NCBI GenBank assembly: GCA_032622095.1
Contig: CP136061.1
Coordinates: 264,400,077-264,464,076, forward strand
Source: Siphonodentalium dalli
Taxonomy: Eukaryota > Mollusca > Scaphopoda > Gadilida > Siphonodentaliidae
Direction of reading: 5' to 3'
DNA: 64,000 nucleotides
Positions 977-56,470 of this stretch are shown piece by piece. The position numbers and the translations under genes were made by a program. The notes beneath the pieces are model-generated. The model did no database searches. It had not been told where the DNA came from and saw only the letters and a list, made by a program, of their open reading frames with translations. Position 1 is the stretch's first letter; every line of letters begins with the position of its first letter.

Positions 977-1415
977 TCAAAAGCTGGCGTAACAACCTAT
1001 GGGAATTATCTTGTGTGCAGTCAAATGTCCTGACAAGGTGATTAGTTTTGGACAGCTATCACATTTATACGGGCGATCACCTGTGGATTTGTTTATGCGT
1101 CGCCAGGCCACTTGATTTAGTGAATGCTTTTGGGAATTCACCCCACTGAGAATGTCGGCCACCAGTGTGAATTATCTTATGTTTCGTCAAGTGGCTTGAT
1201 TGAGTGAATGCTTTATCGCATATACATGTATCGCACTGATACTGTCGATCTCCAGTGTGAACCCTCTTGTGTGCAGTCAAATTTCCCGACGTGGTGAATG
1301 ATTTTGGACATATATCACATTTATACGGGCGGCCACCAGTGTGAATTATCTTATGCTTCGACAGGTTGTTCGATTTAGTGAATGCTTTTGTGCAAATATC
1401 GCACTGATACGGTCG
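977..1415 (-). pseudogene. decaying downstream fingers of ZNF-1
   Basis: Downstream of the ZNF-1 stop the same frame continues with recognisable C2H2 fingers (PYQCDICTKAF, PYKCDICPKSF, then QYQCDTC with a small insertion). Further on come fingers whose zinc ligands are lost (RHSQWGEFPKAF) and frame changes. This is the eroded 3' tail of the array, not a separate gene. The stop sits exactly where the linker Asp of HTGD would be, so the array was truncated from within. Confidence 0.75.
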
Positions 1416-3101
1416 CTAACCAGTGTGAATTGTCTTATGCTTCGTCATGTGGCTTGACTCAATGAATGATTTTTCACAAATATCACATTTATACGGGCGA
1501 TCGCCAGTGTGGATTCTCTTATGCCTCGTCAGGTGGCTTGATGTAATGAATGCTTTCTCGCATATATCACACTGATACGGTCGATCGTCGAAGTGAATTA
1601 TCTTATGCTTCATCAGGTGGCTTGATGTAGTGAATGCTTTCTCGCATATATCGCACTGATACGGTCGATCACCAGTGTGGATTCTCATATGTGTCGACAG
1701 ATTACTTGATTGAGTGAATGATTTCTCGCAGATATCGCACTGATACGGTCGGTCACCAGTGTGGATTCTCTTATGCTTCATCAGGTGGCTTGATGTAGTG
1801 AATGCTTTCTCGCATATATCGCACTGATACGGTCGGTCACCAGTGTGGATTCTCTTATGTGTCGACAGGTGGCTTGATGTAGTGAATGCTTTCTCGCATA
1901 TATCGCACTGATACGGTCGGTCACCAGTGTGGATTCTCTTATGTGTCGACAGATCACTTGATTGGGTGAATGATTTATCGCATATATCGCACTGATACGG
2001 TCGGTCACCGGTGTGAATTAGCTTGTGTCTCGTCAGGTGGCTTGATGTAGTGAATGCTTTCTCGCATATATCACATTTATACGGTCGATCACCAGTGTGG
2101 ATTATCTTGGGTCTCGTCAGGTGGCTCGATGTAGTGAATGCTTTCTCGCATATATCACATTTATACGGTCGATCACCAGTGTGAATTCTCTTATGTTTCG
2201 TCAGGTTGCTTGCTTGGGTGAATGATTTCTCGCATATATCGCACTGATACGGTCGGTCACCGTTGTCAATTATCTTATGCCTCGTCAGGCTGCTTGATTC
2301 AGTGAATGTTTTCTCGCAAATATCGCACGGATACGGTCGGTCACCAGTGTGAATCCTCTTGTGTTTCGTCAGGTTGCTTGCTTGAGTGAATGATTTCTCG
2401 CATTTATCGCACTGATACGGTCGGTCACCGGTGTGAATTATCTTATGCCTCGTCAGGCTGCTTGATTCAGTGAATGCTTTCTCGCATATATCGCACTGAT
2501 ACGGTCGACCGCCTGTGTGAATCTTCTTGTGTGCAGTCAAATTTCCTGACTGGGTGAATGATTTTTCACATATATCACATTTATGAGGGCGGTCGTCGAA
2601 GTGAATAAACTTATGCCCAGCCAGGTGGCTTGACGTAGTGAATGCTTTCTCGCAAATATCGCACTGATGCGGTCGGTCACCAGTGTGAATTATCTTATGC
2701 CTCGTCAGGTGGCTTGTTTCAGTGAATGATTTATCGCATATATCGCATTGATACGGTCGGTCACCAGTGTGAATTATCTTATGCCTCGCCAGGTGGGTTG
2801 ATGTAATGAATGCTTTCTTGCATATATCGCACTGATAGGGTCGATCGCCAGTGTGAATTCTCTTGTGCATGGTCAAATTTCCTGACTGAGTGAATGATTT
2901 TTGACAAATATCACATTCATACGGGCGATTACTTGAGTGGATTATCTTATGGTTCGTCAAGTCCCTTGATTGACTAAATTCCTTCTCGCATATATCGCAC
3001 TGATACCGTAGATCTCCAGAATGAATCAATTGGTGCTTAATTAAATCGCCCGAAACAGTGAAAGATTTATCACATCGATGTGCACCGTCGCCGGAATACA
3101 T
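1416..3101 (-). CDS. poly-C2H2 zinc-finger protein (ZNF-1), about 20 fingers
   Basis: The 561-residue ORF is almost entirely C2H2 zinc fingers joined by TGDRPY linkers. The finger consensus is C-x2-C-x3-F-x5-L-x2-H-x3-H. Two finger types dominate: one with FTTSSHL and one with FTQSSNL or FTQASNL helices. The first finger lacks its first Cys pair. One finger has the final His replaced by Asp (HKIID) and one has Pro for the first His (TRPKIIH), so at least three cannot bind zinc normally. C2H2 arrays of this kind are usually nuclear sequence-specific DNA-binding proteins. No KRAB, BTB, SCAN or other effector domain is visible, and the start at 3101 may be an internal Met of an exon whose upstream exons lie elsewhere. 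The ORF stops at a TAG in the linker while finger-like sequence continues beyond, so the gene may be truncated or a recent pseudogene. Confidence 0.85.
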   Translation of the reverse strand: MYSGDGAHRCDKSFTVSGDLIKHQLIHSGDLRYQCDICEKEFSQSRDLTNHKIIHSSNRPYECDICQKSFTQSGNLTMHKRIHTGDRPYQCDICKKAFITSTHLARHKIIHTGDRPYQCDICDKSFTETSHLTRHKIIHTGDRPHQCDICEKAFTTSSHLAGHKFIHFDDRPHKCDICEKSFTQSGNLTAHKKIHTGGRPYQCDICEKAFTESSSLTRHKIIHTGDRPYQCDKCEKSFTQASNLTKHKRIHTGDRPYPCDICEKTFTESSSLTRHKIIDNGDRPYQCDICEKSFTQASNLTKHKRIHTGDRPYKCDICEKAFTTSSHLTRPKIIHTGDRPYKCDICEKAFTTSSHLTRHKLIHTGDRPYQCDICDKSFTQSSDLSTHKRIHTGDRPYQCDICEKAFTTSSHLSTHKRIHTGDRPYQCDICEKAFTTSSHLMKHKRIHTGDRPYQCDICEKSFTQSSNLSTHMRIHTGDRPYQCDICEKAFTTSSHLMKHKIIHFDDRPYQCDICEKAFITSSHLTRHKRIHTGDRPYKCDICEKSFIESSHMTKHKTIHTG

Positions 3102-3360
3102 TATCTTATTTACGGCGTTAGACCTCTTTCAGATAACGTATTCACATATATTACACTGATGCCGGATTGATAACAGAATGACAAGAGAAAATGCACAGTT
3201 ATATTTAATGCGAGGGTGATTTGATGCTGCTTTAAAGTATCTTAAAACTAAAAAAATAAATTGGTCACAGATAAGTAACCTCACAGTTCTGGTCTGCCAG
3301 ATATGAGCACATTATTTAACGTTTATCAATATCACAGTGTGTGGAATTCAGTGGTGTAAA
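3102..3360 (-). other. ZNF-1 5' flank, shared with ZNF-2
   Basis: About 3210-3345 matches 55625-55765. Shared words include AAGTAT(C/T)TTAAAACTAAAA, GGTCACAGATAAGT, GGTCTGCC(A/G)GATA and ACATTATT(T/G)AACGTTT. The two zinc-finger loci therefore share 5' flank as well as coding sequence and arose by a duplication larger than the finger array. Confidence 0.75.
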
Positions 3361-6135
3361 TATCTTCTGAAGCCACATACTTCAATGCTAACATTTGTTA
3401 ATGCGTATCAAATGCCAAATTAAAAATGTTCAAACTGCTTTCGGATTATGTAAGCTTGACATCATTCTTTGGAAACGTTCCCAGATACAAAAAACTAAAA
3501 TTGTAATCCACTGCTGGCAACAGCCAATTACCAATCGATGTCATGAAACTCAACCCCATCTAAAGTTACCACTAGTGCAGCCCTTTTAATTCAGATTGAT
3601 TGGCTTCGGCAATCTGCTACGGCAACCCTTTACCGTGGCCCAGTTTGCTTCAGCAAATGGCTTCGGCATTGCCGATTGCCGTAGCCAATTATGAAGGCTG
3701 ACTAGTGTGACACCCCAGTTTAACCGCGTTTCATTTAATGTTAACCACAGTTATAAGATGCAGTTAAACTGTATTCCACAACTGGCTGATTGTGCGGTTA
3801 AAACATATCATTCGCGATTAAACTGGTATCTGTTTCAGCGGAACAACCATGCACATGGTATACTACAGGTATGTACTAGTATTGTTGTGTCGTGTTTTAG
3901 TTGCCATGACTGTTTGTACATTTTTGGCGGTGTTACGACACTCTCAAAATGGCTAATGTGTGTGGGATGTTGCCGTCGGTGGCCAAAAACATATTGGTAT
4001 TCTTTACATACGGTGGGGGAAAACAAACAAATCAAAACACATTCTTCCCAATGGAGAACTCTTAATACATATGGAATTAATAGATTTTATATATATTTAT
4101 TTGCCTGTAAATATTGGGGAGCGTAACTACTAGCTCCCCAATATAATTATATACATATGATTATGATAACATTTGACAAATTCTCAATTATATTGATGTT
4201 TTATAGTTATTTTAATTATCAAGAGTCAAGATAGTATCAAGATTCAAAATATGAGAATACAATAGAAGAAAATTCGAAAAGTATGACATGTACATGTATA
4301 CCACTCAACTGATCTATTAAATTTTTGGCTAAACACGCCAAACCGAAGGTCGGCCAAAAATAAGAGAAGAGAAGTGTTAATTGTATACATCAGATCTAAA
4401 ATTACAGCCCCTCCATGGTTATTTATAAACAAGGGTGAGTATCGGTTAGCTCGTGTAGTTATTATAGCAAGACCAATATAGATATAGACTAAATTCTTCT
4501 GATAGTATTAGAAATAATACCATTTCGCCGTAAATATGTACTCGGTGTGACAAAGATACATACATCGAATACATGTATGTGTTATATGTATTGATATACA
4601 ATAGGTAAATTCTGAAACAGTTATGTTGCAAACGTTAACATTGTATTACTTGGTTACTCATGAAATAATTGTCGGGTACTGTACGCCATTTTCAATAAAT
4701 TTCTGGTGATAACAATGGTACAGTATCCCTTTAAACACAGTGGGCTAAATTCCGCTATGTATTAACAATTTCCAAATTCTCTATTATATACAATATTTAC
4801 ACACTAATAATTGTAGACTCGAAATGACAGAATTAAAGGTGTGAACAGCTCAGAATAGACCCCCAAGTCTCATCACAAGGAATATATGGCCCAGGGTGAC
4901 TAAACAAGGAAAGCAAACCCACCTCTGTGGGTAAGTCATCCCCGATCACACAAGTATTGTCATACCGAACTACAATAGCTCCCAATTGAACTACTGGGTA
5001 ATAACTGAACAGAAACTGAATGAGTATTATACGGAATAATAAATGCAGCAAACTCTACAAATGAGGGTAAATCAATTTCATTGGATAACTAACATTGTGT
5101 AAAATGGAAACATCATTGCGGTGGGTACAACATCCAACATTTAAACCAGCATATTTTACATCCGCAAATGTGTACACACATGATGTATGAACGCAATAAT
5201 TATGTCATCAACACAATGATTTATGTTCAACTAATTTATGCTATATATTTACAGTGACGACTTTATATAACTTTGCCCGTATGCTAGTATTGATCTCTGC
5301 AATTGATTGATCTAAAAATTCAACAAATTATTCCCGACGGAGATGAGCAATTTATTCCAACTATCATTATCGTAATACTAATGCCTTCTCATATGATAAC
5401 TATACTAAACTATTCGAATAACCTTTTGAATATGTTCTCGTTTAATACTTGAAAATCAAATTGTCAACAACACGGCGACGCCGTGTACGAACGTAACACA
5501 AGCTCCAGGTTAAATGTTGAATTATGTATTTCGCAAAGGACTTTCGAATTGTGGATGTGAATTAGACCTGGACCTGTGTCCGATAACATGTACCCGTATA
5601 TATATGAAATAGTTAACATTAAATGTCCAATTGTTATTCAGAATAAGTTTCTATGATAAGATAAATTAACATCCAATTGGATTATTTTGATATATAGGGT
5701 TGTCAAATGTTATATTGCTAAAAATGCTATACACTGTCAAATAACGGTGTTAAAGTTGTCAATATATAAACCTGTGAGTGTGACACGCCATTCAAAACGT
5801 GACTAGCTGAACACTTTTAAGACATACGAGTTTTTTGGTTAATACCTATAGGCGGTCAATACTCTACCTGACAATGGAATATCAAACTTGTCACATGTAT
5901 ATACAAACATATGTAAAAGGAGTCGAATTAGCATGTCTCAATTATGGTTACAGATTACATCGAATAATTTCTGTCAAAACTATTTCATTATAGAGATAGC
6001 GTCAAGTTTTTGCGAAATGACACGGAAATTAGTTGAATAGCGTCATTGGAGGTATGTAATTTGGTGAGATAATCACATAAGAGCTTCACGCGGATTGGTT
6101 AACGGCTTGCACAAAGGAGCTCTTAGTTATTCATG
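3361..6135. other. intergenic, no gene recognised
   Basis: AT-rich sequence with only short, unrelated ORFs. At 3597-3690 there is an imperfect inverted repeat built on GGCTTCGGCAATC and its complement. I see no conserved domain, splice-flanked exon or RNA gene. Confidence 0.5.
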
Positions 6136-6412
6136 ACGCTCATAAATGACAGACAGACACAATAGAGCTTTACGCAGATTGGTCGGCAGTTGGCACGCCA
6201 GAGCCCCAGAGCGCCCAGGGTGGGAATTGACACAATGGAGTCTGTCACGACAAACTACGCCCATACGTGAACGCTCATAAAGGACAGACTGACACAATAG
6301 AGCTTTAAGCGGATTAGTCGGCAGTTGGCACGCCAGAGCCCCAGAGCGCCCAGGGTGGGAATTGACACAATGGAGTCTGTCAAGGCAAACTACGCCCATA
6401 CGTGAACGCTCA
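6136..6412. repeat. tandem duplication, two 135-bp units
   Basis: ACGCTCATAA recurs at 6136 and 6271 and the next ACGCTCA is at 6406, so the period is exactly 135 bp. The two units are nearly identical, differing at a few sites such as TACGCAGATTGG versus TAAGCGGATTAG. Because 135 is divisible by three, a minus-strand ORF runs through both units; it is a by-product of the duplication. Confidence 0.85.
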
Positions 6413-7149
6413 GATTTCCATAGGCGACACGCGCCGTTTGAAATTACTGGGGTCTTATAATAAATGCATAATAATAATTCAAAGAAATACAAACAAATTT
6501 ATTTCACTTAACTATTTAAACATTAAGACATTATACACAATAAATTTCAAAATAATTATTGTCTTATTGGTTTGGGGAAAACACCACTCGCGGACGCCGT
6601 TGTCTCTTTTCTCTTTGAATCGGCGTTTCTTCTCGCACAATGTCGTGTTCTGAAACGCTCAGGGTAATGAAGATCCTATTCAACTTTCAACAAATCCATT
6701 ATATGTTGCCGTATACTCTGATGGATCTTATGGCGTCATCAGCAATCGAGGACAAAGCTTCAAGTGCACAACATGTGACAGAAAGTGTACCACATGCCAA
6801 CATGTAAAATTATATTTCCTACCATACTTGTTCCGTCTTGGAACTATATATGTGAGCGCTGAATGGTCATGTTGTCACTAATGAGATTTGCGCGGTGTGG
6901 TGACATAATTACACATATAATGGGTAGCGCGGATTAGCAACAATGTATCACATTTTCGCTTAAAAACTAAGCTCTATTGTGTAATGTGTTTCCCAATGCG
7001 CGCAACGTTCATTTGTGTCAGAGCGACCCCATCGTGTTGACGTGCGCCCGCAAGTGAAAGCATATCACATTTCTCTTCATGTCCAGAGGCGGTCGTAATT
7101 AAAGACAGTCGCGCTCATTTAGTAAAATCCCTATAGCAATTTGAGCGTC

Positions 7150-7500
7150 CCATATAAAAATGTACCTGGGTAAATCTTGGTGTTTACCTAGGTATACCCC
7201 TGATGAACCCCGGTACATGTAGGTTTTACCCTGGTTCCACCCAGGTCACACCCAGGTTACACCCAGGTAAATCAGGGCTTTATAAAGATTTACCCTGGTG
7301 TTTTCTATATATGTTAGGTTAAACCCCAGTTTACCCGGGTTTTTACAGATATAATTTAGAAAAACGCTGTCACACCCCGACACCCGGGTATTTAGACCCA
7401 GGTTATCCGGAGTATTTACACCCAGGTATTTACACCAGGTTTTCGCCCAGGTATTTACTACAGTGTTCACCCGGATATATACACCTGTGGTATTTTGTTA
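7150..7500. repeat. ACCCAGGT-type minisatellite
   Basis: Dense degenerate repeats of ACCCAGGTATTTAC and related words. The left edge carries CATATAAAAATGTACCTGGG, which reappears in inverted form near 22890 at the edge of the palindromic minisatellite. The two arrays therefore belong to the same repeat family. Confidence 0.7.
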
Positions 7501-7504
7501 AACT

Positions 7505-9535
7505 GTATAATCTGCACTTGAAGTTACCGTATTAACCCGTTCTATATTACAGCATCATTGGCGTGTAGTTACCTTATTAACCATTCTATATTAAAGCATT
7601 AATTGACAGGTAGTTACCTTATTAACCCTTTCTATATTAAAACATCATTGGCGTGTAGTTACCATGTTAACCCTTTCAATATTAAAGCACCATTGACGGA
7701 TAGTTGCCTTATTAACCCTGTATATACTAAAGAACCATTGTCGTGTAGTTACCTTATTAACCCTTCCTATACATTGACGTGTAGTTACTTTATTAACCCT
7801 TTCTATACTAAGTATCATTGGCATATAGTTACCTTATTAACCCTTTCTATATTAAAGCATTAATTGACAGGTAGTTACCTTAAACAACCCGTTATATACT
7901 AAGTATCATAGGTGAGTAGTTACATTATTAACCATGTCTATACTAAAGCGCCATTGATGGGTAGTTACCTTATTAACCATTTTTGTATCAAAGCATCGTT
8001 GACGTGCAGTACCATATTATAACCCTTTCTATATTAAAGCATCATTGACGGATAGTTACCATATTAACCCTTTCTATATTAAAGCACCATTGGCGTGTAA
8101 TTACCTTATTAACCCTGTCTATATTGAAGCAATAATTGACTGGTAGGCCCTAGTTACCTTATTAACCCTTTCTATAATAAGTGTCATTGTGATTAGTTAC
8201 ATTATTAACCCTTTCTACAATAAAGCATCATTGACATGAAGTTACCTTATTAACCATTTCTGTATTCAAGAATTATTGACGTGTAGTTACCTTATTAACC
8301 TTTTCTATATTAAGACATCATTTACGTGTAGTTACCATGTTAACCCTTTCTATATTAAAGTATCATTGACGGGTAGTTGCCTTATTAACCATGTATATAC
8401 CTAAGTATCAGTGTCGTGTAGTTACCTTATTAACACGTTCTATACTAAGTATCATTGACGTGTAGTTACCTTATTAACCCTTTCTATATAAAAGCGCCAT
8501 TGATGGGTAGTTACCTTATTAACCATTTTTGTATTGAAGCATCATTGGCGTGTAATTACCTTATTAACCCGTTCTATATTGAAGCAATAATTGACAGGTA
8601 GGCCCTAGTTACCTTATTAACCCTTTCTATAATAAGTGTCATTGGTGATTAGTTACATTATTAACCCTTTCTACAATAAAGCACCATTGACATGAAGTTA
8701 CCCTTAACCATTTCTGTATTAAAAAATTATTGACGTGTAGTTACCTTATAAACCCTTTCTATATTGAGACATCATTTACGTGTAGTTCCATGTTAACCCT
8801 TTCTATATTAAAGTATCATTGACGGGTAGTTGCCTTGTTAACCCTGTATATACCTACTAGTAAGTATCAGTGTCGTGTAGTTACCTTATTAACCCTTTCT
8901 ATACTAAGTATCATTGGCGGTTAGTTACCTTATTAACCCGTTATATACTAAGTATCATTGACGTGTAGTTACCTTATTAACCCTTTCTACATAAAAGCAC
9001 CATTGATGGGTAGTTACATTATTAACCATTTTTTGTATTGAAGCATCATTGGCGTGTAGTTACCTTATTAACCCTTTCTATATTAAAGCATCATTGACAT
9101 GTAGTTATCATATTAGCCAGTTCTATATTAAAGCATCATTGACGGTAGTTGTCATATTAACCCTTTCTATATTAAAGCACTATTGGCGTGTAATTACCAT
9201 ATTAACCCTTTCTATATTAAAACATCATTGTCGTGTAGTTACCCTATTAGCTCTTTCTATATTAAAGCATCATTGACGTGTAGAACTTTATCTTATTAAC
9301 CCTTTCTTTATTAAAGAATTATTGACATGTTACCTTATTAACCCTTTCTATATTAAAGCATCATTGACAAGAAGTTAACTTATTAACCTTTCTATACTAA
9401 GTATCATTGCCGTGTAGTTAGTTACCTTATTAACCCTTTCTATATTAAGACGTCGGTCATTGACAGGTAGTTTACCTTATTAACCCTTTCTGTATTCAAG
9501 CATCATTGGCGAGTAGTTACCTTATTACTTGAAGT
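7505..9535. repeat. 45-bp satellite array with ~455-bp higher-order period
   Basis: A unit of about 45 bp containing GTAGTTACCTTATTAACCC, then TTTCTATATTAAAG, then CATCATTGACGT, repeats about 45 times over 2 kb. A variant with GGTAGGCCCTAG occurs at about 8142 and 8597, each followed by the same unusual neighbours. This shows a higher-order repeat of about 455 bp, or ten units. ORFs such as 7603-7863 and 9049-9276 are repeat translations, because 45 is a multiple of three. Confidence 0.9.
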
Positions 9536-46469: not shown

Positions 46470-46997
46470 TTAAAGATGGATTATCTCTTTAAATAACAAA
46501 TTTTAAATAGTTGCGTGGGTATAAAATAATAGATATGAACTGAAGACCTATGTCCGGAAAAGCTTCTATCAATTAATATTGATTTTATTTCGAATATTAA
46601 ATCGGGCCCATTTATGTTACTATTTTTAGAACCGACCATTCGGATGAGACCGTATTGCGATATAGAGCACTGGGCTGTTCCTACGGCTACGCAACGAATG
46701 TCAAATGTCACAGATTGGTTGTTTGTACTGTTTTGTTCCACAGATATAAGCGATAATGAGTATAATTAACGTTTATTTGTGACAAAATTGCACAATATAA
46801 TTTATGGTCTCTGTTAGCAGTAACCACTATTGTGCGTTAGCTGAACAAACACACCTTTTTAGACCAGAACATATTCGAAATAAAATTAATAATAATCGAT
46901 AGAAGCATTTCCGGACGTGGAACAAAACAGTACAAACAACCAATCTGTGACATTTGACATTTAAAATTTGTTATTTAAAGAGATAATCCATCTTTAA
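46470..46997 (-). mobile_element. TTAA MITE (copy F), chimeric right end
   Basis: The left end is TTAA-AGATGGATTATCTCTTTA and the small ORF is open (46481-46741, minus). The right end is unusual: after GCATTTCCGGACG it jumps to the middle/left-end sequence in reverse (TGGAACAAAACAGTACAAAC; AAAATTTGTTATTTAAAGAG). It closes with ATCCATCT-TTAA. So both ends derive from the same terminus. The element abuts the last finger of ZNF-2 and supplies its TAA stop. Confidence 0.8.
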
Positions 46998-47893
46998 GTG
47001 AATGATTTATCGCATATATCACATTGATATGGTCGATCTCCAATGTGAATCCTCTTGTGAGTAGTCAAATTTGCTGACTGGGTGAATGATTTTGGACATA
47101 TATCACATTTATACGGGTGATCACCTGTGTGGATTTGTTTATGCATCGTCATGTCGCTTGATTCAGTGAATGCTTTTGGGCATTTATCGTACTGATACGG
47201 TCAATCGCCAGTGTGAATTCCCTTGTGTGCTGTCAAATGTCCCGACCGTGTGAATGATTTTGGACATATATCACATTTATACGGGCGATCACCAGAGTGG
47301 ATTATTTTATGTGCCGTCAGGCTGCTTGATTGAGTGAAAGTTTTTGGGCAAATATCGCACTGATACGGTCGGTCACCAGTGTGAATTCTCTTATGTGCAG
47401 TCAAATTTCCTGACCGTGCGAATGATTTTGGACATATGTCACATTTATACGGGCGGTCACCGGAGTGGATTCTCTTATGCTTCGTCATGCCGCTTGAGTC
47501 AGTGAATGATTTCTCGCAAATATCGCACTGATACGGTCGATCACCGGAGTGAATTCTCTTATGCTTCGTCAGATCGCCTGATTTAGTGAATGATTTCTCG
47601 CAAATATCGCTATGATACGGTCGATCTCCAGTGTGAATCATCTTGTGTGTAATCAAATTTCCTGACTGGGTGAATGCTTTTTGACAGATATCACATTTAT
47701 ACGGGCGATCATCAGAGTGGATTCTTTGATGTGTCGTCAGTCCACTTGAATGACTAAATACTTTCTCGCATATATCACACTGATACGGACTGTCGTCGAT
47801 TTGAATCATTTTGACTGAATTATGACACTGATACGACATATATCCAGTGTGAGTCATTTGGTGTTTAATTAAATCGCCCGACACAGTGAATGA
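46998..47893 (-). pseudogene. C2H2 zinc-finger gene ZNF-2 (main part)
   Basis: A minus-strand finger array paralogous to ZNF-1. An ORF of 227 residues (47201-47884) has seven good fingers with TGDRPY or SGDRPY linkers plus a degenerate one. One finger has Ser for its first Cys (PYHSDICEKSF). The ORF ends at TGA (47201-47203) where related linkers have CGA (Arg of TGDRP). Beyond this stop the same frame continues for two more fingers (CPKAFTESSDM, CPKSFTQSANL) and a third cut off by the MITE at 46997. At the 5' side the LTR element interrupts the gene inside a finger, and the missing start of that finger lies at 55467-55516. The nonsense codon, MITE truncation and 7.6 kb insertion make it a pseudogene in this assembly. 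Confidence 0.85.
47889..47893. other. 5-bp target duplication, left copy
   Basis: AATGA immediately before the 5' LTR and again at 55467-55471 after the 3' LTR. Rejoining the flanks at this sequence restores the finger reading C-D-K-S-F-T-V-S-G-D-L-I-K-H seen in ZNF-1, which confirms the insertion point. The exact size could be four to six bases because of chance identity at the junctions. Confidence 0.85.
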
Positions 47894-48108
47894 TGTTGTA
47901 AAGTGGCGAATCGGGCAGGGTTAATCCCCAAGAAGGCAGCCAATGACGTCAGGACCACGTGACCGCAGACTGAAACCTTACTCTTGAACAAGAAACCAGA
48001 TTGATTTATATCTCTGAAGAATCTAAGTTCATCTACGAGCGAAATCGTGGATGTAACCTTACTGGAGGATCTATCGCCACGACAAGTCAATACCAGTAAG
48101 TTTACTAT
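47894..48108 (+). repeat. 5' LTR
   Basis: Starts TGTTGTAAAGTGG and ends near TTTACTAT; the exact 3' edge is ambiguous by a few bases. It contains a perfect cAMP-response palindrome TGACGTCA (47944-47951) and an E-box CACGTG (47956-47961) five bases further on. A weak TATA-like TTTATATC lies at about 48003. CCAGTAAGT near its 3' end could act as a splice donor. Transcription is probably driven from here. Confidence 0.9.
47944..47961. promoter_or_regulatory. CRE plus E-box in 5' LTR
   Basis: TGACGTCA followed by CACGTG, both perfect palindromic sites (CREB/ATF-type and bHLH-type respectively). The same pair is in the 3' LTR at 55302-55319. Binding is inferred from consensus only. Confidence 0.55.
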
Positions 48109-49362
48109 AATTGACGCCGTCGACAAATTCTTAAAATCGTGATTTTGAGAAGGATTCGTCGAAGGATTTCACGGACTCACAGCGAAATCTCTGTGATTCC
48201 AAATTCAAAGGATTGACTTTGGAAAAGTGAAGATTCTTCTTTATTCTTCTTGCGGAGAGGGATGACACTCTCCGATAATTGTTTGCACGCTACTACGATT
48301 ATATTGTGGTAGCTTGCGTATTGTGCTTAATTGTGAAATTAGGTTTTTGGGAAATAATTTTTCCCAAAATCCTTGTGAAAATTCGCGCAAGCTTCGCCAG
48401 GAGGAATTCTGGGAAAGGATTCCAAATTTGGTGAAGAAGGCGGAGCAAACACCCATATTTGGGAAAAGTGTTCCATATTTGGGAAAAGTGACGGGAATTC
48501 AGCTCCCATATTAGGAGAAGAAGTCACGTGGTGTTCTATATTTGGAAAGCCGACCATGCGGTCTGCCATATTTGGAACGACTCTTGAGTAGTGTGCCATA
48601 TTTGGAAAGCCAGAAAACTCGGAAATCAACATTCGTTAAAATTCAATAATTCTCAGAACTGATCCACCGAAATTAAGACAATTTATTACTTCTGGGCAGA
48701 AGAAACATTCGGGTTATTTCCACACACACGTGGTAGCGCATGGACTATGTCTGGTACACGTGAGAGCAAACTAACGACGAGTCCACAAAACGGAATATTT
48801 CTTCCACCGATGAGTTCCCTCACATTCACATCGAGGGCTATAAGACTATAATTAAAAGTCACACCAGCAATACACATCAGGAAATATATATCCCACATGT
48901 GGGCATGTATTGTGTTTCAACAATTAAAAGTTATTCTTCTCATTGGTATCTTCGGTTTGAGATATTACACGACCGCATTCTAGTTTTTCGGACATATCTT
49001 AAAGGGACAATACCAGTTTGTGAAAATTGTTTCGAAGAAATCCAATAAACAAAATCAACACAGCTTGTAACCCCTCTATCGAGGGAAATATCATTCGGAC
49101 ACTTCTCTTAAAGAGACATACTTGATACCAAGCACGGACTCTTCCGACTGTTATTGTTTATAGTCAGTATTCCGATTTTATCTTTTGGAGATAAATAAGG
49201 GAAGAGAGTTGGAAATAACATCTTGTCTAACATTAATGACACTTACCTTTCAGCAGAAGAGTTTTTGACAAAGGTTTGAGAAACATATCGAAAAAAACTG
49301 CCCCTTTCAAATTGGGGAAGATCTAACCAGTACATTGCAAAGATATTGAAAGTCTTGAAAAG
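48109..49362 (+). other. 1.25 kb leader of the LTR element
   Basis: Untranslated leader between the 5' LTR and the first large ORF. It holds a hairpin GGAGAG..CTCTCC (48254-48271), a palindrome TTTTGGGAAATAATTTTCCC (about 48344), the CArG cluster, and the first CCCTC hairpin (49072). TTACCTTTCAG at about 49243-49253 is a good splice acceptor. Together with the LTR donor it could remove most of the leader. Several upstream ATGs would otherwise precede the main ORF. Confidence 0.5.
48422..48605. promoter_or_regulatory. cluster of seven CArG (SRF-type) boxes
   Basis: CCAAATTTGG (48422), CCATATTTGG (48453, 48473, 48566, 48596), CCATATTAGG (48506) and the near match CTATATTTGG (48536). Six of seven fit CC(A/T)6GG exactly. 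Start-to-start distances are 31, 20, 33, 30, 30 and 30 bp, close to whole helical turns. Each is followed by GAAA or similar, so they derive from a short repeat, but the boxes are better kept than the DNA between them. Such clusters bind serum response factor or related MADS proteins in animals; binding here is inferred. Confidence 0.6.
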
Positions 49363-52300
49363 ATGGCCTACCAGAACATTAACATGGCCCAACAACAGGA
49401 AATAGAGAATGGGGGAGCACGATCAAAACCGTATTATCCCATGCAAATAAGTACTCCATACCCCTCGCAACATAGTGAACCAGCAGCGGAAGGAATGACA
49501 CACCCCTATGGGGGAGGAAATCATTCTTATCACAGCAGCACCGACACTCTGGGTCAATATCAGGAAAGGGGTCAAGATCATAATATTATTCCCCGATTAA
49601 GTTCTAGGGATATGTATCGAGAGGTATCATGTTTCTATGAGGATGAGTCCTCGGAATATGACAGTAATTCCTCAGACTATGACGGTATTGCCTCAGATTT
49701 TGGTGAGGAACAGAAAGGGGGAGATGAGGTGGGAATAAAACCGAAAGATGATTCTTCGGACTCGGATGAGCAACTGAAAATATCAAGGGCTTCCGTCAAA
49801 GAACACCTCAAAGATTTACTCCCCCAACCAACTATCAATGACCTCCTCAACAACAAAATACCTGGATTCGCACGTTCTAAAACAGTCATAAAACAGGAGG
49901 CCATAACCCCGCAACACTATGGGGAAAATACCACCCGTCATAACACAAGACAGCCAAATAGACCCCCTGAACAAAAATATGGGGAACAGAGACCCCATGA
50001 TACAAAATATGGGGAACATAGACCCCCTGCTGCAATACCAGTCCAAAAGCAATGGAGGGATCATGTTGATTTTATTGTCGAGCCCACAGGTAATCAACAT
50101 CGTTACCCGACAGACAGGGTACATGGATCCCAAAATGAGGCACGAGTACCGGCTAACCAACCTGATGTACTGCCACAGAGGCCAGCAATGCAAAATCACC
50201 AACAGAGAGAGCGTGAAGATGGAGCTCGTGAAAAGGAAAATTATGAACATCGTCAAAGGAACTGTCGTTCTCGTTTCAGGGGGGAATTCATGCCTCCAAA
50301 GTTTGACGGATTGCCCAGTTCGAGTTGGCAAACATTCCGTACCAAGTTCGAGAACTATGCCGCCATGAGAGGATGGGATTATCAGCTGGTAGTGACTCCT
50401 TTGCGCTGGTGTCTGGAAGGTTTCGCTGGCGACCATTACGCTAGATTGGTACAGCAATCCCCTCATATAGAGGGACCGGAAATGTTACATCGGATGGAGG
50501 AAAGGTTCGGAACCTGTGACATCAAAATACCAAGATCTCTGAATTTTGATGGAGCACCAAAATCGAGTTGGGAAACCTTTCAAATAAAGTTTGAGATGTA
50601 TGCCGCCATGAAGGAATGGGATGACCAAGAAATGGTGAATCAGTTGTGGTGGTGTTTGGAAGGTATGGCTAGCGATCATTACACCATACTAGTACAGCAA
50701 TCCCCTCATATAGAGGGACCAGAAATGTTACTAAGGATGCGGATTAAGTTCGCACGTGACATCAAAATACCAAGATCTCTGAATTTTGATGGAGAACCAA
50801 AATCGAGTTGGGAAACCTTTCAAACCAAGTTTCAGATGTATGCCGCCACGAATGGATGGGATGACCAGCAAGTGGTGAATCAGTTGTGGTGGTGTTTGGA
50901 AAGTATCGCTAGCTATAGCTACACCATAATAGTACAGCAATCCCCTCATATAGAGGGACCGGAGCTGTTAAGACGGATGGAGAAAATATTCGGAATGCGC
51001 GAAATACCACAACGGTATACGACTGACTCAAGTTCAGAGATGCATGTGCGGAAATCCCCATCAAAGCCATCGCACCACATACCTGCTACCCACACTGAGA
51101 TAAAATGCGTACCGGTACTGAAACAAACCGAAAATACGTATACAGTCACCTTACCACTGCCGAGCAGAGTCTCAAACCCCTGCAGGGGCGACCCAGACCA
51201 AACGATAGAAACCGAGGTGCCTGAAATTCAAACAGTGCCTGAAATTCAAACAGGAAATCCCAATTATAAATTGGAGAAATGTATACAAGATCTAGAAGAA
51301 CAACTCTCAACCTTGCGTACGGAAATAAAAAGTACCTGCATAAAAGAGCAAACATCAGAATTTCACATGAACAGAACAGTACAAGGAACAACTCAAGGTG
51401 ACATAACCAATCCCCAAATGTTGGGGACATCCCCACTCACATGGGATCCTCTGGGGACATGTACGCAAATTGCGGCATCACCTTATGGAATGCCCAAGAA
51501 CAGATATTACCGAGATGGGAACGCGGGGACAGGGCTACCCTCAATTGAGGGACATCCTACCACGGTGATATATTCAAATGATAAATCTGTACTAGACATT
51601 TCAATTTCAGGAGAATGTCAGGAGGTACCCATGACTAAAAACGACTCAAATGTCAGCTTTATAGTTGGAGATAAAGGACTATCCTCCATTGAGGAACATC
51701 CTTCAATAGTGATATGCGCACAAGAACCGACTGTTGACATGGCCCAAAATATAAACAATCCAAATAACAGTAGAGATTCAGGGCCACCCTCTATCAAGGG
51801 ACATTCAGAAATAAAGACACGTGTCAAAGAACAGACTATATGTGATGTATCTCAAGAAATCGAAGAAAATATCCAACTATTAAACAACTGTATGCCCTCA
51901 TCTAAGGGACATCATACCTTGACTGTATCCAAAGGTGAGCAAGGAAATGTTCATTTAATAAACAACTTCACCCCCTCATGCGAGGGAGATAACATAATGA
52001 CTGTGTCCGAAGACAAGGACCAAGAACATATTGTGCGAGAAAACTCTAAAATATACCGGTTGGCAAGAAAACAGGAAACATCTGAACCTACCTTAATTGA
52101 GGACCAGTGTTCGAGATATCGGTATAACAACACCGCTAACTCTAATCATAGTGATGCAGTCTTTACAGGTACTGGTAGCTATACTCAAACTGCAGAGGAT
52201 GCAAAGGATGAACCCTCTACACGGAGGGATAACCTAAATGAAGACATGGGCATGAGTGACAAAAAGAAGATTGAAACTAAATTAGAAGTTCAATATGTCA

Positions 52301-53217
52301 TGCCAGATGAGTGCCAACCATGCCGACCAAGAACTACATGTATCAACATAGACCGAACACTGGACATGATACAACATATGACACTTTTAGGAAAACCACT
52401 AATGGCTGATGCCCATATTCACTGTATAACTGACAGAAAGGATACAACATCAATGGAAGAATTGTTACAAACCCATTACATTGAAAAAATCCAAAATAAT
52501 ACTCAGCTAGAAAACATAACAAAATACCCAGAATCGTACATTTCAAAACATGCCAGTAATAGTAAGACCTTGGAATCCCTCATCATGAGGGGCGATGAAT
52601 TGGGTCTTTGGAGGCCGGGAGAAGGAGATCCAAAGGATGTCATTATAAGCCTCTTAAATATGGATCCAACAACAACATCTGAACAACCAGCTGTTAAAGA
52701 GAACACCAGTGACCTATCGCAGAAGATAGAAACGCATACTGGTACCAATAATACCAGTCGTGAATCCCTCATAGTGAGGGCCAAGCAGATAAGACTGCAA
52801 ATTACTAAGGAATGCGAACCACACGAGGCAAGAATACATATTCAAGAAAATGCCCAAATAACAACTGGCACAAATGACAGAGACTGCCATGGAGACATGA
52901 TGACAGCTGAAGGTATATCTGGAGAGACAGACAAAGAGAGTCAATATGAGCACCTAGCTTTTAATGATAGCACTAGTGACCTAATGCAGAATATGGATAC
53001 CCATACTGGTACCGGTACCAATAATACCAGTCTGGAATCCCTCATAGTGAGGGTCAATCAGATACACGTAAGCCCGCAAATGACTAAGGCATGCGAACCA
53101 AGCGAGGCAAGACTAAATATTTATGAAACTGCCCAAAGAACTGCTTGTATAAATGATATAGACTGCCATGGAGATATTACGACAGATGATGGTATATCTG
53201 AACAGACAGACGGATAG
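49363..53217 (+). CDS. Gag-like protein with triplicated capsid-type domain
   Basis: 1284 codons; the start AAGATGG has a good Kozak context. Residues about 85-130 are Ser/Asp/Glu-rich. Residues about 306-546 are three tandem ~80-residue domains of the pattern PPKFDG..SSWQTFRTKFENYAA, then GWD......L.WCLEG.A..HY, then LVQQSPHIEGPEML.RM...FG. This is the pattern of retrotransposon Gag capsid N-terminal regions, here repeated every 240 bp. Residues about 634-660 (KLEKCIQDLEEQLSTLRTEI) look like a coiled coil. The C-terminal third is low-complexity, with two ~82-residue tandem modules (52703-52945 and 52970-53226) carrying THTGTNNTS and ESLIVR. PLMADAHIHCITDRKD (about residues 1011-1026) resembles the HxH start of TatD enzymes. 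No CCHC zinc knuckle. Expected role is RNA binding and particle assembly. The ORF ends at TAG, and the same frame continues to 53562. Confidence 0.75.
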   Translation: MAYQNINMAQQQEIENGGARSKPYYPMQISTPYPSQHSEPAAEGMTHPYGGGNHSYHSSTDTLGQYQERGQDHNIIPRLSSRDMYREVSCFYEDESSEYDSNSSDYDGIASDFGEEQKGGDEVGIKPKDDSSDSDEQLKISRASVKEHLKDLLPQPTINDLLNNKIPGFARSKTVIKQEAITPQHYGENTTRHNTRQPNRPPEQKYGEQRPHDTKYGEHRPPAAIPVQKQWRDHVDFIVEPTGNQHRYPTDRVHGSQNEARVPANQPDVLPQRPAMQNHQQREREDGAREKENYEHRQRNCRSRFRGEFMPPKFDGLPSSSWQTFRTKFENYAAMRGWDYQLVVTPLRWCLEGFAGDHYARLVQQSPHIEGPEMLHRMEERFGTCDIKIPRSLNFDGAPKSSWETFQIKFEMYAAMKEWDDQEMVNQLWWCLEGMASDHYTILVQQSPHIEGPEMLLRMRIKFARDIKIPRSLNFDGEPKSSWETFQTKFQMYAATNGWDDQQVVNQLWWCLESIASYSYTIIVQQSPHIEGPELLRRMEKIFGMREIPQRYTTDSSSEMHVRKSPSKPSHHIPATHTEIKCVPVLKQTENTYTVTLPLPSRVSNPCRGDPDQTIETEVPEIQTVPEIQTGNPNYKLEKCIQDLEEQLSTLRTEIKSTCIKEQTSEFHMNRTVQGTTQGDITNPQMLGTSPLTWDPLGTCTQIAASPYGMPKNRYYRDGNAGTGLPSIEGHPTTVIYSNDKSVLDISISGECQEVPMTKNDSNVSFIVGDKGLSSIEEHPSIVICAQEPTVDMAQNINNPNNSRDSGPPSIKGHSEIKTRVKEQTICDVSQEIEENIQLLNNCMPSSKGHHTLTVSKGEQGNVHLINNFTPSCEGDNIMTVSEDKDQEHIVRENSKIYRLARKQETSEPTLIEDQCSRYRYNNTANSNHSDAVFTGTGSYTQTAEDAKDEPSTRRDNLNEDMGMSDKKKIETKLEVQYVMPDECQPCRPRTTCINIDRTLDMIQHMTLLGKPLMADAHIHCITDRKDTTSMEELLQTHYIEKIQNNTQLENITKYPESYISKHASNSKTLESLIMRGDELGLWRPGEGDPKDVIISLLNMDPTTTSEQPAVKENTSDLSQKIETHTGTNNTSRESLIVRAKQIRLQITKECEPHEARIHIQENAQITTGTNDRDCHGDMMTAEGISGETDKESQYEHLAFNDSTSDLMQNMDTHTGTGTNNTSLESLIVRVNQIHVSPQMTKACEPSEARLNIYETAQRTACINDIDCHGDITTDDGISEQTDG

Positions 53218-53639
53218 AGTCAATGTACTAGTAGTAGCACTGAAGGCCATACAAGTCTATTAACTTTTCCACCTAGTTACGGAAACTGGAGTGATACTGA
53301 ACCTTCTGATTTGATTAGCTGCATACCAGATACATGTGACACCCAGCCTGTTAACAAAGACTGGACGGAAACACAAATGGTCACATGCATATCAGAAACT
53401 TGGGACGACGACAGTAGAATCTATGAGCCACCACCAGTACCATTCCCATCAATGGTAACACCAGTTGTCGACGACTCACACAGTGATGATACAATGCAAG
53501 ACATTGGTGAACTGCCTTGGGATCCGGGTGGACATTCTTCGTCAATGAAATCACATCTATAGAATCGGAAGAGCAGCATTCTATAGAATGGGTTGATCAG
53601 CATTGGGACCCAGAGTCAGTGACAAGATTTGAACAATGA
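53215..53639 (+). pseudogene. continuation of the Gag-like frame beyond a TAG
   Basis: After TAG (53215-53217) the same frame stays open for 115 codons to 53562, with a Pro/Asp-rich segment (EPPPVPFPSMVTPVVDD). The second C-terminal module aligns with the first as ETDKE-SQ versus QTDG-stop-SQ, so the stop stands where the sister module has GAG (Glu): one base change. Past about 53535 another frame continues the acidic text (ESEEQHSIEWVDQHWDPE) to a TGA at 53637. This suggests a second, frameshifting change. The ancestral protein probably ran on at least to here. Confidence 0.6.
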
Positions 53640-53996
53640 ACAGATTTGAACCCTCAGGGGTATATTGAAGATCAATTAATTCCCTCTACGAGGGAGCTAT
53701 AACTCAACACATCAAACTTATTATTGGCCACAAAGAATTTAAGACAGTAACTGATAATTCCCACATAGCCTATAGATAGTGGGTGAGAAATCTGCTATAA
53801 GAAATGAGAATTCCACGAGCCCTTGGGTGATGCAAATATCCAGACTACCCCATTAAGGGGTCGAAGTAAAGAAAGACTAAGAAAGAAGAATATAGTGGGA
53901 GCTTGGAAGATGAACACATACAATTAGCTGTATAGACTATAATAACTGGAAGTGACGTACAATTGATCTCCAAATGCGAATGATCAGCGACATACC
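53640..53996 (+). other. spacer between Gag-like and TatD reading frames
   Basis: Multiple stops in all plus-strand frames. It contains hairpins at 53651, 53682 and 53847. No reverse transcriptase, integrase or protease fragments are visible. TATAGATAGTGGG and CTGTATAGACTATAA are the only other visible motifs. Confidence 0.5.
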
Positions 53997-54767
53997 ATGA
54001 ACCCACTTAACACTGATATGTGGGATTCCCTTTATAGGGTAAGGCATCTAAGATCCAAGATGAAGCAACTGCTCTTCCAGAAAGTCAGAAGACCGGAGAC
54101 CTACCCGGACTCAGATGAGAAGTGGGACAATCTGACAAGAGTAGCAATTGGTTTGCACCCAACTCATGCGGCAAGAATGGCCCCCGGAGCAGGAGGACCG
54201 AGCGCTAAACAGATGAAATATCATCTGCAATGCCCAGAAGTTACCGCTTTTGGCGAAGTGGGGTTGGACCGGACAATTCGTCCCGAGTTCTGGAGGAGAC
54301 AAACATCGCTCTTCCAGAGACTTATTGAGCTAGTAACAACGGACAAACCCCTCGTGCTCCACTTTAGAGGGTCAAGGGAATCTGGGGACGCCGAAGATGT
54401 ATTCAACCGGGGATTGGTCATGGCAAAATAAAATTTGTCACCCCTTCAACCAATACACCTACATTGTTTCACCGGCAGTAAGGCAATGGTGGAGAAATGG
54501 ATACAAGCGTTTCCCAGATGCTATTTTGGGTTCACTGCGAAAGTTGGAGATTTCACCAACACCCAAAAAGATGCCCTACAGGCCGTACCGGACGACAGAC
54601 TATTGACTGAGACAGATGCCCCATACATAGGAAAAAACCTGGGAGTAAGATATATACCCACGATGGTGGGAGATGTCGCTGTATTAATGGCAGAAGTGAG
54701 AGGATCTACAGTCGACCAGATCCTGAAGGTCACCGTCAAGAACGCCCGTGACCTATATCGACTGTGA
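53997..54767 (+). pseudogene. TatD-type metal-dependent DNase domain with one in-frame stop
   Basis: In one reading frame, broken only by TAA at 54429-54431, the sequence carries the TatD family motifs in order. These are AIGLHPTHA, TAFGEVGLDRT (metal-binding Glu), KPLVLHFRG (His), then after the stop LHCFTGSK (His), YFGFTAKVG, and LLTETDAPYIG (Asp). The C-terminus (YIPTMVGDVAVLMAEVRG) is the usual helix segment. TatD proteins are TIM-barrel nucleases needing two metal ions; animal TATDN2 is the nearest familiar type. The first metal motif, HxH, is not in this ORF. The only candidate is DAHIHC in the upstream ORF. Whether the enzyme is made at all depends on stop suppression or another copy. 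The match to TatD is confident, function is not. Confidence 0.8.
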
Positions 54768-55251
54768 GATCTCTCTAACGATATCCAGAGACGACGGATG
54801 CGGAAGGCCTCGGTCCCATCATTCTGTCCCTCTCATGAAGGGAAGGAGTAGCCCTTGCAGACCTAAGGCAGGATCGACACACCATCGCCAGGCTGGATGG
54901 AAAACAAGGGTTGATGGTAGTTCCCCTCCAATTATAGAGAGAGACAGCGTCATGGGGACCGAGAAAATTACATGAGTCCGACCCCTGTTTGGGGAATGAA
55001 TAACGGATAGTCAAACACCCCGGTACGGAACAAGACAACAGAATAAAGACCCCTAAGGGGAAAGAATAACACATAGTCAAAAGAGAGAACCGAAGAAACC
55101 ACACAATCATCGTGGGGAAAGGAGGAGGGATGGAATACCCCACACTACTGACACCAAGGCCTTGAGGGATAAAAGAACCCCTGATGGGGGGACAAGAAGA
55201 CAGGAATCAGACCATACAAGGCACCCTCCAAAAATGGAAAATTGGGAAGAG
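54768..55251 (+). other. 3' untranslated region and polypurine tract
   Basis: Purine-rich, non-coding, with hairpins at 54827, 54982, 55050 and 55178. The last 14 bases before the 3' LTR are AAAATTGGGAAGAG, a fair polypurine tract for plus-strand priming. It places the LTR start at TGTTG. Confidence 0.65.
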
Positions 55252-55466
55252 TGTTGTAAAGTGGCGAATCGGGCAGGGTTAATCCCCAAGAAGGCAGCCA
55301 ATGACGTCAGGACCACGTGACCGCAGACTGAAACCTTACTCTTGAACAAGAAACCAGATTGATTTATATCTCTGAAGAATCTAAGTTCATCTACGAGCGA
55401 AATCGTGGATGTAACCTTACTGGAGGATCTATCGCCACGACAAGTCAATACCAGTAAGTTTACTAT
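55252..55466 (+). repeat. 3' LTR
   Basis: I find no difference from the 5' LTR over its 215 bases, including the CRE at 55302-55309 and the E-box at 55314-55319. It is followed by the AATGA duplication and then by ZNF-2 sequence. Confidence 0.9.
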
Positions 55467-55775
55467 AATGATTTATCACAAATATCACATCGATACAGAA
55501 CATTGCAGGTGTTCATCTCTTACTTACGAGCGTTCAGAAAATGTTTTCTCGCAAATTTAGACTACACTGGTGCCGTGTTAACAACATAATGCTAAGAGAC
55601 AAAGTACAGCCGTGTGCTAATGCTCGTGCGATTTGAAGCTGCCTCCCAGGAAAGTATTTTAAAACTAAAAGAAATATTAGGTCACAGATAAGTGACCACA
55701 AAAACTTATGGTCTGCCGGATACGGAAACATTATTGAACGTTTGTGAATACCACACATTCTATGGGTTACAGTTA
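55467..55775 (-). pseudogene. ZNF-2 5' end beyond the insertion
   Basis: On the minus strand 55516 to 55467 reads MNTCNVLYRCDICDKSF. This is the first half of the finger whose second half (TVSGDLIKHQ) lies left of the LTR element. The flank to 55765 matches the ZNF-1 5' flank (AAAGTATTTTAAAACTAAAA; GGTCACAGATAAGTGACC). The Met at 55516 is a plausible but unproven start. Confidence 0.75.
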
Positions 55776-55779
55776 CACA

Positions 55780-55970
55780 GATGGATTATCTCTTTAAATA
55801 AAAATTTTTAAATAGTTGCACGGGTATAAAATGATAGATATGAACTGAAGACCTATGTCCGGAAAAGCTTCTATCAATTAATATTGATTTTATTTCGAAT
55901 ATTAAATCGGGCCCATTTATGTTACTATTTTTAGAACCGACCATTCGGATGAGACCGTATTGCTATATAG
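55780..55970 (-). mobile_element. TTAA MITE (copy G), truncated
   Basis: AGATGGATTATCTCTTTAAA through GACCGTATTGCTATATAG matches the left third of the other copies. The leading TTAA has changed and the rest is missing where the ACGTTGGCC array begins. Confidence 0.8.
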
Positions 55971-55975
55971 CCCAG

Positions 55976-56470
55976 ATAGCACACGTACGTTGGGCCAACG
56001 TTGGAATAATTACGTTGGCCCAACGTCGGCTTTTGTGGTTGGGACGACGATGGCCCGACGTCGACTTGCGTTGGAATAATTACGTTGGCCCAACGTCAGC
56101 TTTTGTGGTAGGTACGACGATGGCCCAACGTCGACTTGCGTTGGAATAATTACGTTGGCCCAACGTCGGCTTTTGTGGTTGGTACGACGATGGCCCAACA
56201 TCGACTTGTTGGAATAATTACGTTGGCGCAACGTCGGATTTTGTGGTTGGGACAACGATGGCGCAACGTCGACATGCGTCAGATTTTGAACGTTTCAAAC
56301 ATGGCTACGTTGGCCCGACGTTGGACAACCAACGTTGGGACAACGTTGGTTTTACCGCTGGTTTAACGTTGGCCCGACGTTGAAAACGTAACGTACGAGG
56401 CGATATGTGAGGTTAGTAGGTGCGTTAGATGTCGACGTTGGACCAACGATGGCCCAACGTTGGTCATAGT
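55976..56470. repeat. 70-bp tandem array of GTTGGCCCAACGT
   Basis: TTGGAATAATTACGTTGGCC recurs at 56001, 56071, 56141 and 56209, a 70-bp period. Each unit has CCCAACGTCGGCTTTTGTGG and TACGACGATGGCCCAACGTC. The motif ACGTTGGGCCAACGT is a perfect palindrome, and degenerate copies continue to 56465. ORFs across it are artefacts. Confidence 0.85.

Follow-up and report, generated by a model that had tools for sequence, protein, structure and literature searches.

A probable non-autonomous companion of TatD-bearing Ty3/gypsy-type retrotransposons in the scaphopod Siphonodentalium dalli

Why should a retrotransposon without a polymerase gene carry a nuclease gene? This question is raised by a long terminal repeat (LTR) element at positions 47894..55467 of a 64-kb stretch of DNA from the scaphopod Siphonodentalium dalli (GenBank assembly GCA_032622095.1, contig CP136061.1; C1:264400077-264464076), which is referred to as the window hereafter. 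A first-pass annotation, made from the sequence of the window alone, ascribed the element to a non-autonomous family that has captured a TatD nuclease and borrows pol from another element. Searches of the whole genome (2.23 Gb in nine contigs) point to a different answer. The window probably contains a young non-autonomous Ty3/gypsy-type companion that would be copied by a larger partner, with which it has exchanged LTRs. The complete TatD, together with Tpt1, belongs to an open reading frame (ORF) of the partner, ORF3, where it may serve to process nucleic-acid ends of the element itself.

The LTR search of the genome yielded 37 matches at 21 loci, 16 of which have two LTRs. These 16 copies comprise eight short ones, seven long ones and one decayed remnant (L025, C6:114.5 Mb). 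The short copies, i.e. the window element and L009-L015, measure 7.14-7.36 kb from LTR start to LTR start and form the subfamilies short A (window, L009-L011) and short B (L012-L015). The long copies, which are located at C9:188.3, C5:238.3, C9:14.4, C4:24.0, C5:199.3, C3:16.7 and C2:166.5 Mb, measure 9.9-29.2 kb, some of them with inserts or rearrangements, and include long A (L016-L021) and long B (L022/L023). In L023 (C4:24.0 Mb), a 759-codon ORF that by eye resembles a non-LTR reverse transcriptase is inserted behind the 5' LTR (positions 408-2684 in element orientation). LTR pairs are identical in nine of the 12 copies compared, 98.1% alike in L012 and L013 and 92% alike in L009, and the insertions are therefore in the main recent. 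Because L012 and L013 have common flanks, they look like a single insertion that was duplicated along with its surroundings.

The absence of pol is a property of the short form and not a mere deletion in one copy, since neither the reverse transcriptase (RT) nor the integrase encoded by a long copy matched any of the eight complete short copies. In the 64-kb window, tblastn (E value up to 0.01) with the RT, integrase, PHD, Tpt1, TatD, helix-hairpin-helix (HhH) and capsid C-terminal domain/nucleocapsid (CA-CTD/NC) segments of the long copy detected TatD only, at 54093-54764. RT and/or integrase matched six of the seven long copies; the corresponding stretch is gone from the seventh (C3:16.7 Mb). 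The presumption of a non-autonomous family that has to borrow pol is supported, and pol-bearing partners with matching LTRs do exist. With its paired LTRs and target duplication, its lack of RT and integrase and such a partner, the short element classifies as a non-autonomous LTR retrotransposon, which would be mobilised in trans. All two-LTR copies except L025, i.e. 15 of 16, contain TatD sequence, which argues against a one-off capture. Among the five single-LTR loci, TatD adjoins the LTR in L033-L035; the stretches taken for L031 and L032 contain no TatD, and the genome-wide TatD search placed two matches 6-7 kb from the LTR of L032.

Is the TatD of the short element functional? The TatD motifs occur in the order given by the first-pass annotation, and the Pfam model TatD_DNase matches two pieces of the window region with E values of 3.1e-10 and 1.9e-20. 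However, the region (54093..54764, plus strand) corresponds to residues 52-276 of the TatD segment of the long copy, and its frame is broken by a TAA codon at 54429 as well as by a one-base gain and a one-base loss relative to the sister copies. In all eight short copies, TatD begins at residue 52 or 57 of 276, the first ~51 residues being gone, and it spans profile positions ~46-49 to 253 (66-253 in one copy). The domain is incomplete in that the N-terminal metal-binding HxH motif is missing in 8/8 short copies. A DAHIH motif in the Gag-like ORF was considered as a displaced HxH and rejected, as its similarity to the TatD N-terminus is at chance level. It is very improbable that the non-autonomous element itself carries and uses a working, recruited TatD nuclease. 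This idea could build on the TatD frames of 220-266 codons that are open in L009, L010, L012, L014 and L015, but besides lacking HxH, the gene is broken in the window, L011 and L013, while the LTR pairs of the window element and L011 are still identical. The pattern of change speaks against it, too. The ratio of nonsynonymous to synonymous substitution rates (dN/dS), calculated pairwise for TatD frames of more than 200 codons and thus without L011, L013, L024, L027 and the window, is 0.9-1.8 among the three open short-B copies (only 4-9 changes each) and 0.36-0.54 between the short subfamilies. The low values between long and short copies (0.09-0.19) are expected if most of the divergence arose in the long elements. 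Hence, TatD changes in a relaxed manner in the short copies and the nuclease decays in the companion.

The long element presents a different picture. Its domains were determined for one long copy, which was analysed in separate pieces. The gag gene contains HHH_3 (helix-hairpin-helix, 3.3e-9) and gives weak PNMA and CCHC matches. The pol gene encodes a protease, RT (2.2e-26), RNase H (9.5e-32), H2C2 and core integrase (2.1e-17 and 2.9e-14) and a terminal PHD finger (1.1e-9). The RT is nearest to that of Ty3 (3.4e-47), and the integrase lies downstream of RNase H, which is the Ty3/gypsy order. ORF3 comprises 1,346 codons and encodes a PTS_2-RNA/Tpt1 domain (2.5e-41) followed by a complete TatD domain (7.3e-37). 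Six TatD positions, which we take to be the metal ligands, align with those of E. coli YcfH (9.4e-15). The Tpt1 domain is also full, its closest solved chains being 7yw3 (5.6e-31) and 7yw2 (2.2e-30), both named tRNA 2'-phosphotransferase 1, and it retains the conserved Arg/His motifs. These long frames are open in some long copies, and selection was assessed in pairs of copies in which the respective frame is open. For TatD, L018 and L022 differ by 19 synonymous and 7 nonsynonymous changes (dN/dS 0.10, p 1e-7 against neutrality), and in the same pair the 391-codon part from integrase to PHD shows 18 synonymous and 3 nonsynonymous changes (dN/dS 0.04). The gag gene (L019 versus L023) has 30 synonymous and 34 nonsynonymous changes (dN/dS 0.30), and ORF3 outside of Tpt1 and TatD has 51 and 76, respectively (p 8e-6). 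TatD is under purifying selection in the long copies and, given the truncation and relaxed change in the short ones, it is maintained in the autonomous element and decaying in its companion. The proposed capture of a working TatD by a non-autonomous element is thereby reversed: the full domain resides in the long pol-bearing lineage and in five other families, and the short element holds a truncated remnant.

How did the short element arise? At the DNA level, short and long copies have in common element positions 1-655, gag pieces that are 77-90% alike and positions 6200-7573; the remainder has no DNA match. In the window, the common leader behind the LTR extends over 48110..48548 on the plus strand and is 95% identical to L017/L019/L021. 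Both ends and the gag fragments would be accounted for if the short element were a simple internal deletion of a long one, but such an origin is unlikely because most of positions 655-6200, save for the gag pieces, finds no DNA match in the long copies. Moreover, a capsid segment has been tripled in the short element. Its Gag-like ORF (49363..53217, plus strand, 1,284 codons) ends at the TAG at 53215, and the same frame is open again to 53562. Within this ORF, three ~240-bp repeats (50273..50992, plus strand) are 70-88% identical to each other and similar to the long gag. The first-pass annotation was right about a long Gag-like ORF with three repeats, but each unit represents one and the same capsid-type segment of the long gag rather than a whole Gag. 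A fold predicted for the repeat by AlphaFold2 without an alignment was discarded (predicted local distance difference test score 40.6). No short copy has a match to the portion of the long gag that encodes the capsid C-terminus and CCHC, and from about residue 565 of 1,411 onwards, the short ORF shows no clear protein match to the long gag, pol or ORF3, which leaves 2.9 kb of the ORF unmatched and likewise speaks against a deletion.

A Gag-derived protein could also have a task of its own, for instance in assisting the entry of the element into partner particles or in interfering with them. An ORF of ~1,410 codons that is open in three copies and the tripling of the capsid segment without the C-terminal and zinc-knuckle part would be compatible with such a role. 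However, the ORF is interrupted in 5/8 short copies, and its comparison between the subfamilies (L010 versus L015) revealed 10 synonymous and 33 nonsynonymous changes, i.e. 33/43 nonsynonymous against 79% expected (dN/dS 0.87, p 0.41). The Gag-like ORF of the short element now changes neutrally, as follows from these values, and a role of its protein in partner particles is accordingly improbable.

The relationship between the short subfamilies and their partners becomes apparent from the LTRs. Across their first 6 kb, short A and short B are 97.5-98.1% alike, whereas identity between LTRs of types A and B amounts to only 86-90%, except for the 5' LTR of L009. Instead, the short A LTRs are 96.7-98.6% identical to those of long A and the short B LTRs 97.2-99.1% identical to those of long B, and the similarity changes sharply at the LTR boundary. 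The approximately unbiased (AU) test rejects a group of short A and short B for the LTRs (p 2.3e-5) and a group of short A and long A for TatD and the 3' body (p 1.3e-4). The LTR tree unites short A and long A with support of 100/98, its other inner branches being weak; L034 (no clean LTR), L035 (motif not found), L024, L025 and L027 were left out of the LTR and body trees. Since near-identical bodies carry the LTRs of different long partners, the short subfamilies look, as far as sequence comparison can tell, like trans-mobilised, LTR-swapping companions of two different long partners. For the retrotransposon Onsen, high recombination between LTR elements in bursts has been reported (PMC5668417).

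A further peculiarity of the element is an excess of hairpins of the type CCCTC-N-GAGGG. The window contains 11 of them compared with 0.09 expected, all within the element and spanning 49072..53694 on the plus strand. Moreover, the element body has the C-rich arm on the 5' side 11 times and the reverse arm order not once (0.14 expected). ORF3 of L018 and L022 contains seven such hairpins each and none in reverse order (0.29 and 0.26 expected), and the counts for the other families L037-L040 are 0, 1, 0 and 0. Nine hairpins lie in the short ORF, three per reading frame, so that the nucleic acid and not a peptide is their common unit. The 11 hairpins are not separate events, as three arose via the capsid triplication and at least two via a 280-bp duplication, which leaves about seven settings. 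No extra conservation of the stems was seen among the short copies (4/110 stem columns variable versus 133/5,400 overall; loops 0/51). It is a guess that the hairpins serve as packaging signals.

How widespread is the association of TatD with pol? A genome search with the C-terminal piece of TatD gave 451 candidates; among the 150 matches scored, 125 share no more than 39-50% identity with the query, and many of these lie in long open frames. A search with PF01026 gave 529 candidates, and the 150 scored all exceed the curated cut-off, including host-like short ORFs such as L041. Five further families (L037-L040 and L042), which were chosen for their long open frames and are not a random sample, all encode RT, integrase and, as the last part of pol, a PHD finger, which is followed by an ORF3 ending in TatD. 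Their TatD sequences are 36-45% identical to that of the window-related family, with the metal ligands kept in 5/5 families. An LTR-like end repeat was found in L037 only, the other four stretches being too short for both ends. Trees of RT, integrase and TatD agree on pairing the window-related family with L037 and L038 with L040; the placement of L039 and L042 is weak in the integrase and TatD trees. Because a complete TatD follows pol-PHD in all five further families and the trees share two pairings, TatD is, judging from gene order and phylogeny, an old and maintained part of a Ty3/gypsy group. Tpt1 is also encoded by L037 and L042. For at least 38 of 69 Tpt1 matches, which include split pieces of single copies, a TatD match is located no more than 12 kb downstream on the same strand, 34 of these within 3.4 kb, the chance expectation being 0.0004 per match.

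Besides these elements, the genome contains ~300-codon TatD ORFs with the highest PF01026 scores (L041 and C3:80.50, C7:145.79, C1:56.55, C1:9.27 and C6:103.42 Mb), which may be host-like genes or retrocopies. In L041 (C6:103.06 Mb), TatD is preceded by a CCCH-like stretch, and the 4 kb examined there matched neither RT nor integrase; the TatD of the long element is ~29% identical to this host-like protein. Candidate relatives from IMG/VR, where patterns matched two and three stretches, could not be confirmed.

How might the two elements work together? The short element has no pol and is made up of LTRs and leader, a Gag-derived ORF and a larger element's 3' end. It would be transcribed from its own LTR, and its RNA would be packaged and copied by the proteins of the partner. 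Insertion would create the 4-bp duplication. Template switching in shared particles is the probable route by which LTRs were exchanged with the partner, and the TatD piece forms part of the 3' end of partner type. By analogy, ORF3 could protect, repair or trim the ends of the element's RNA and cDNA: TatD may trim or resolve RNA:DNA or single-stranded intermediates, and Tpt1 may remove 2'-phosphates left by RNases or cap 5'-monophosphate ends with ADP-ribose. TRPT1 has indeed been described to ADP-ribosylate 5'-monophosphate RNA, yielding a product that resists XRN1 and is not translated (PMC9458441), and loss of Tatdn2 is reported to raise R-loops in medaka primordial germ cells (PMC12709183). 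As a tentative extension, a Ty3/gypsy group might possess its own end-processing kit, with TatD as standard and NAD+-dependent Tpt1 in several families, protecting element RNA and cDNA from host cleavage; the non-autonomous parasites might have dropped the kit and gained the C-rich/G-rich hairpins as dispersed signals for partner particles. It is rather doubtful that TatD and Tpt1 of ORF3 instead destroy or repair nucleic acids in order to counter host defence and do not serve the copying of the element. For conflicts between viruses and hosts, Tpt1/KptA has been discussed in terms of RNA repair (PMC9503650). The TatD domain matches QatD, a defence family (5.5e-15), though TatD models generally score as well, and the close linkage with pol fits either function. 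We know of no defence target.

Several points weigh against an LTR-exchanging companion whose partner processes its own nucleic-acid ends. The groups compared in the AU tests were chosen with prior knowledge of the identities. L009 (C8:127295685-127303237) is a hybrid of two LTR types, with a 5' LTR near type B, a type A 3' LTR, 92% identity between them and matching target duplications, and LTR exchange could have occurred by gene conversion instead. The long-A copy at C5:238.3 Mb (L018/L019, C5:238343667-238358148) has identical LTRs and no matching target duplication, which may reflect rearrangement or recombination between copies. As to Tpt1, it is absent from three of the five further families, L042 has QAH in place of the usual QGH motif, and the 5 synonymous and 6 nonsynonymous changes of the long Tpt1 do not differ significantly from neutrality (dN/dS 0.33, p 0.07).

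Which known systems resemble this pair? Du and co-workers reportedly described, in 2010, non-autonomous LTR elements of soybean with autonomous partners and LTR swapping, and other plants provide further examples of such pairs. The lack of pol, the partner-matched LTRs and the LTR exchange are alike; here, the host is an animal, and the tripled capsid segment, the TatD remnant and the hairpin excess differ. The long partner resembles Ty3/gypsy elements (Metaviridae) in its RT and the order protease-RT-RNase H-integrase, but it differs in that pol ends with a PHD finger, gag contains HhH, an ORF3 with Tpt1 and TatD is present and the LTRs have TG...TA ends. Both enzyme domains are complete as in TRPT1/Tpt1/KptA (PMC9458441; PMC9503650) and, with six ligands, in TATDN proteins such as Tatdn2 (PMC12709183), but here Tpt1 is joined to TatD in a retroelement ORF and TatD stands at its end. 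Troyka is likewise an animal LTR element related to gypsy, but it was rejected as identical because of its 3-bp duplications and CG...CG ends (PMC12440569), and a term search for TatD, PHD, Tpt1 and ORF3 in the available Troyka text had no match. In the open papers searched, with Repbase and subscription journals outside the search, no description of TatD, TATDN2, KptA or Tpt1 in an LTR retrotransposon was found; where TATDN2 appears in PMC5408686, PMC6962438 and PMC5840709, the passages seen use it as a retrocopy name or for a neighbouring gene. To our knowledge, LTR retrotransposons carrying TatD nucleases or Tpt1 have not been reported previously in these open papers.

Where did the window element insert? 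A repeat search identified a 218-bp direct repeat, 100% identical, at its ends. The LTRs (47894..48109 and 55252..55467, plus strand, TG...TA) are identical as noticed in the first-pass annotation, but they are 216 bp rather than 215 bp long, because an A follows the 215-bp repeat in 12/12 two-LTR copies compared. Similarly, the target duplication is not 5 bp but 4 bp long (ATGA; 47890..47893 and 55468..55471 by flank comparison), because among the 11 of 12 copies with a 4-bp duplication the fifth base is mismatched in six. The polypurine tract could be confirmed: a purine-rich tract (55226..55251, plus strand) lies directly 5' of the 3' LTR and is the same in 10 of the 12 copies tabulated, being lost in L012 and without a row for L027. 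With a single 4-bp copy between the joined flanks, a 246-codon frame containing an intact C2H2 finger is restored, which places the element within a C2H2 zinc-finger exon. This exon consists of 84-bp repeats (46994-47884 and 55472 onward), with a finger spanning the joined site. No tRNA gene was found within the 64-kb window and no clear primer site was recognised, and an Rfam search of 47800-55600 gave no match up to an E value of 0.1. Nearby, a ~528-bp element-like stretch (46470-46997) with 39-bp perfect inverted ends resembles a miniature inverted-repeat transposable element; a 192-bp piece of it, 97% alike, occurs on the opposite side of the LTR element (55779-55970). Tandem repeats of 35/70 bp are located at 56000-56294.

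Each of the six families examined combines TatD with pol, and in the single family tested, TatD is kept by selection. For genome annotation, this is a caution that gene models labelled 'TATDN2-like' in genomes of this kind could represent transposon ORFs; a possible case is the giant squid Hox region, for which a putative TATDN2 is mentioned next to ZMYM1 and a name of the pogo transposon-derived type (PMC6962438). Furthermore, the young pair of autonomous and non-autonomous elements allows LTR exchange to be followed, and it becomes testable whether some retroelements encode enzymes for the repair of RNA ends or the processing of hybrids.

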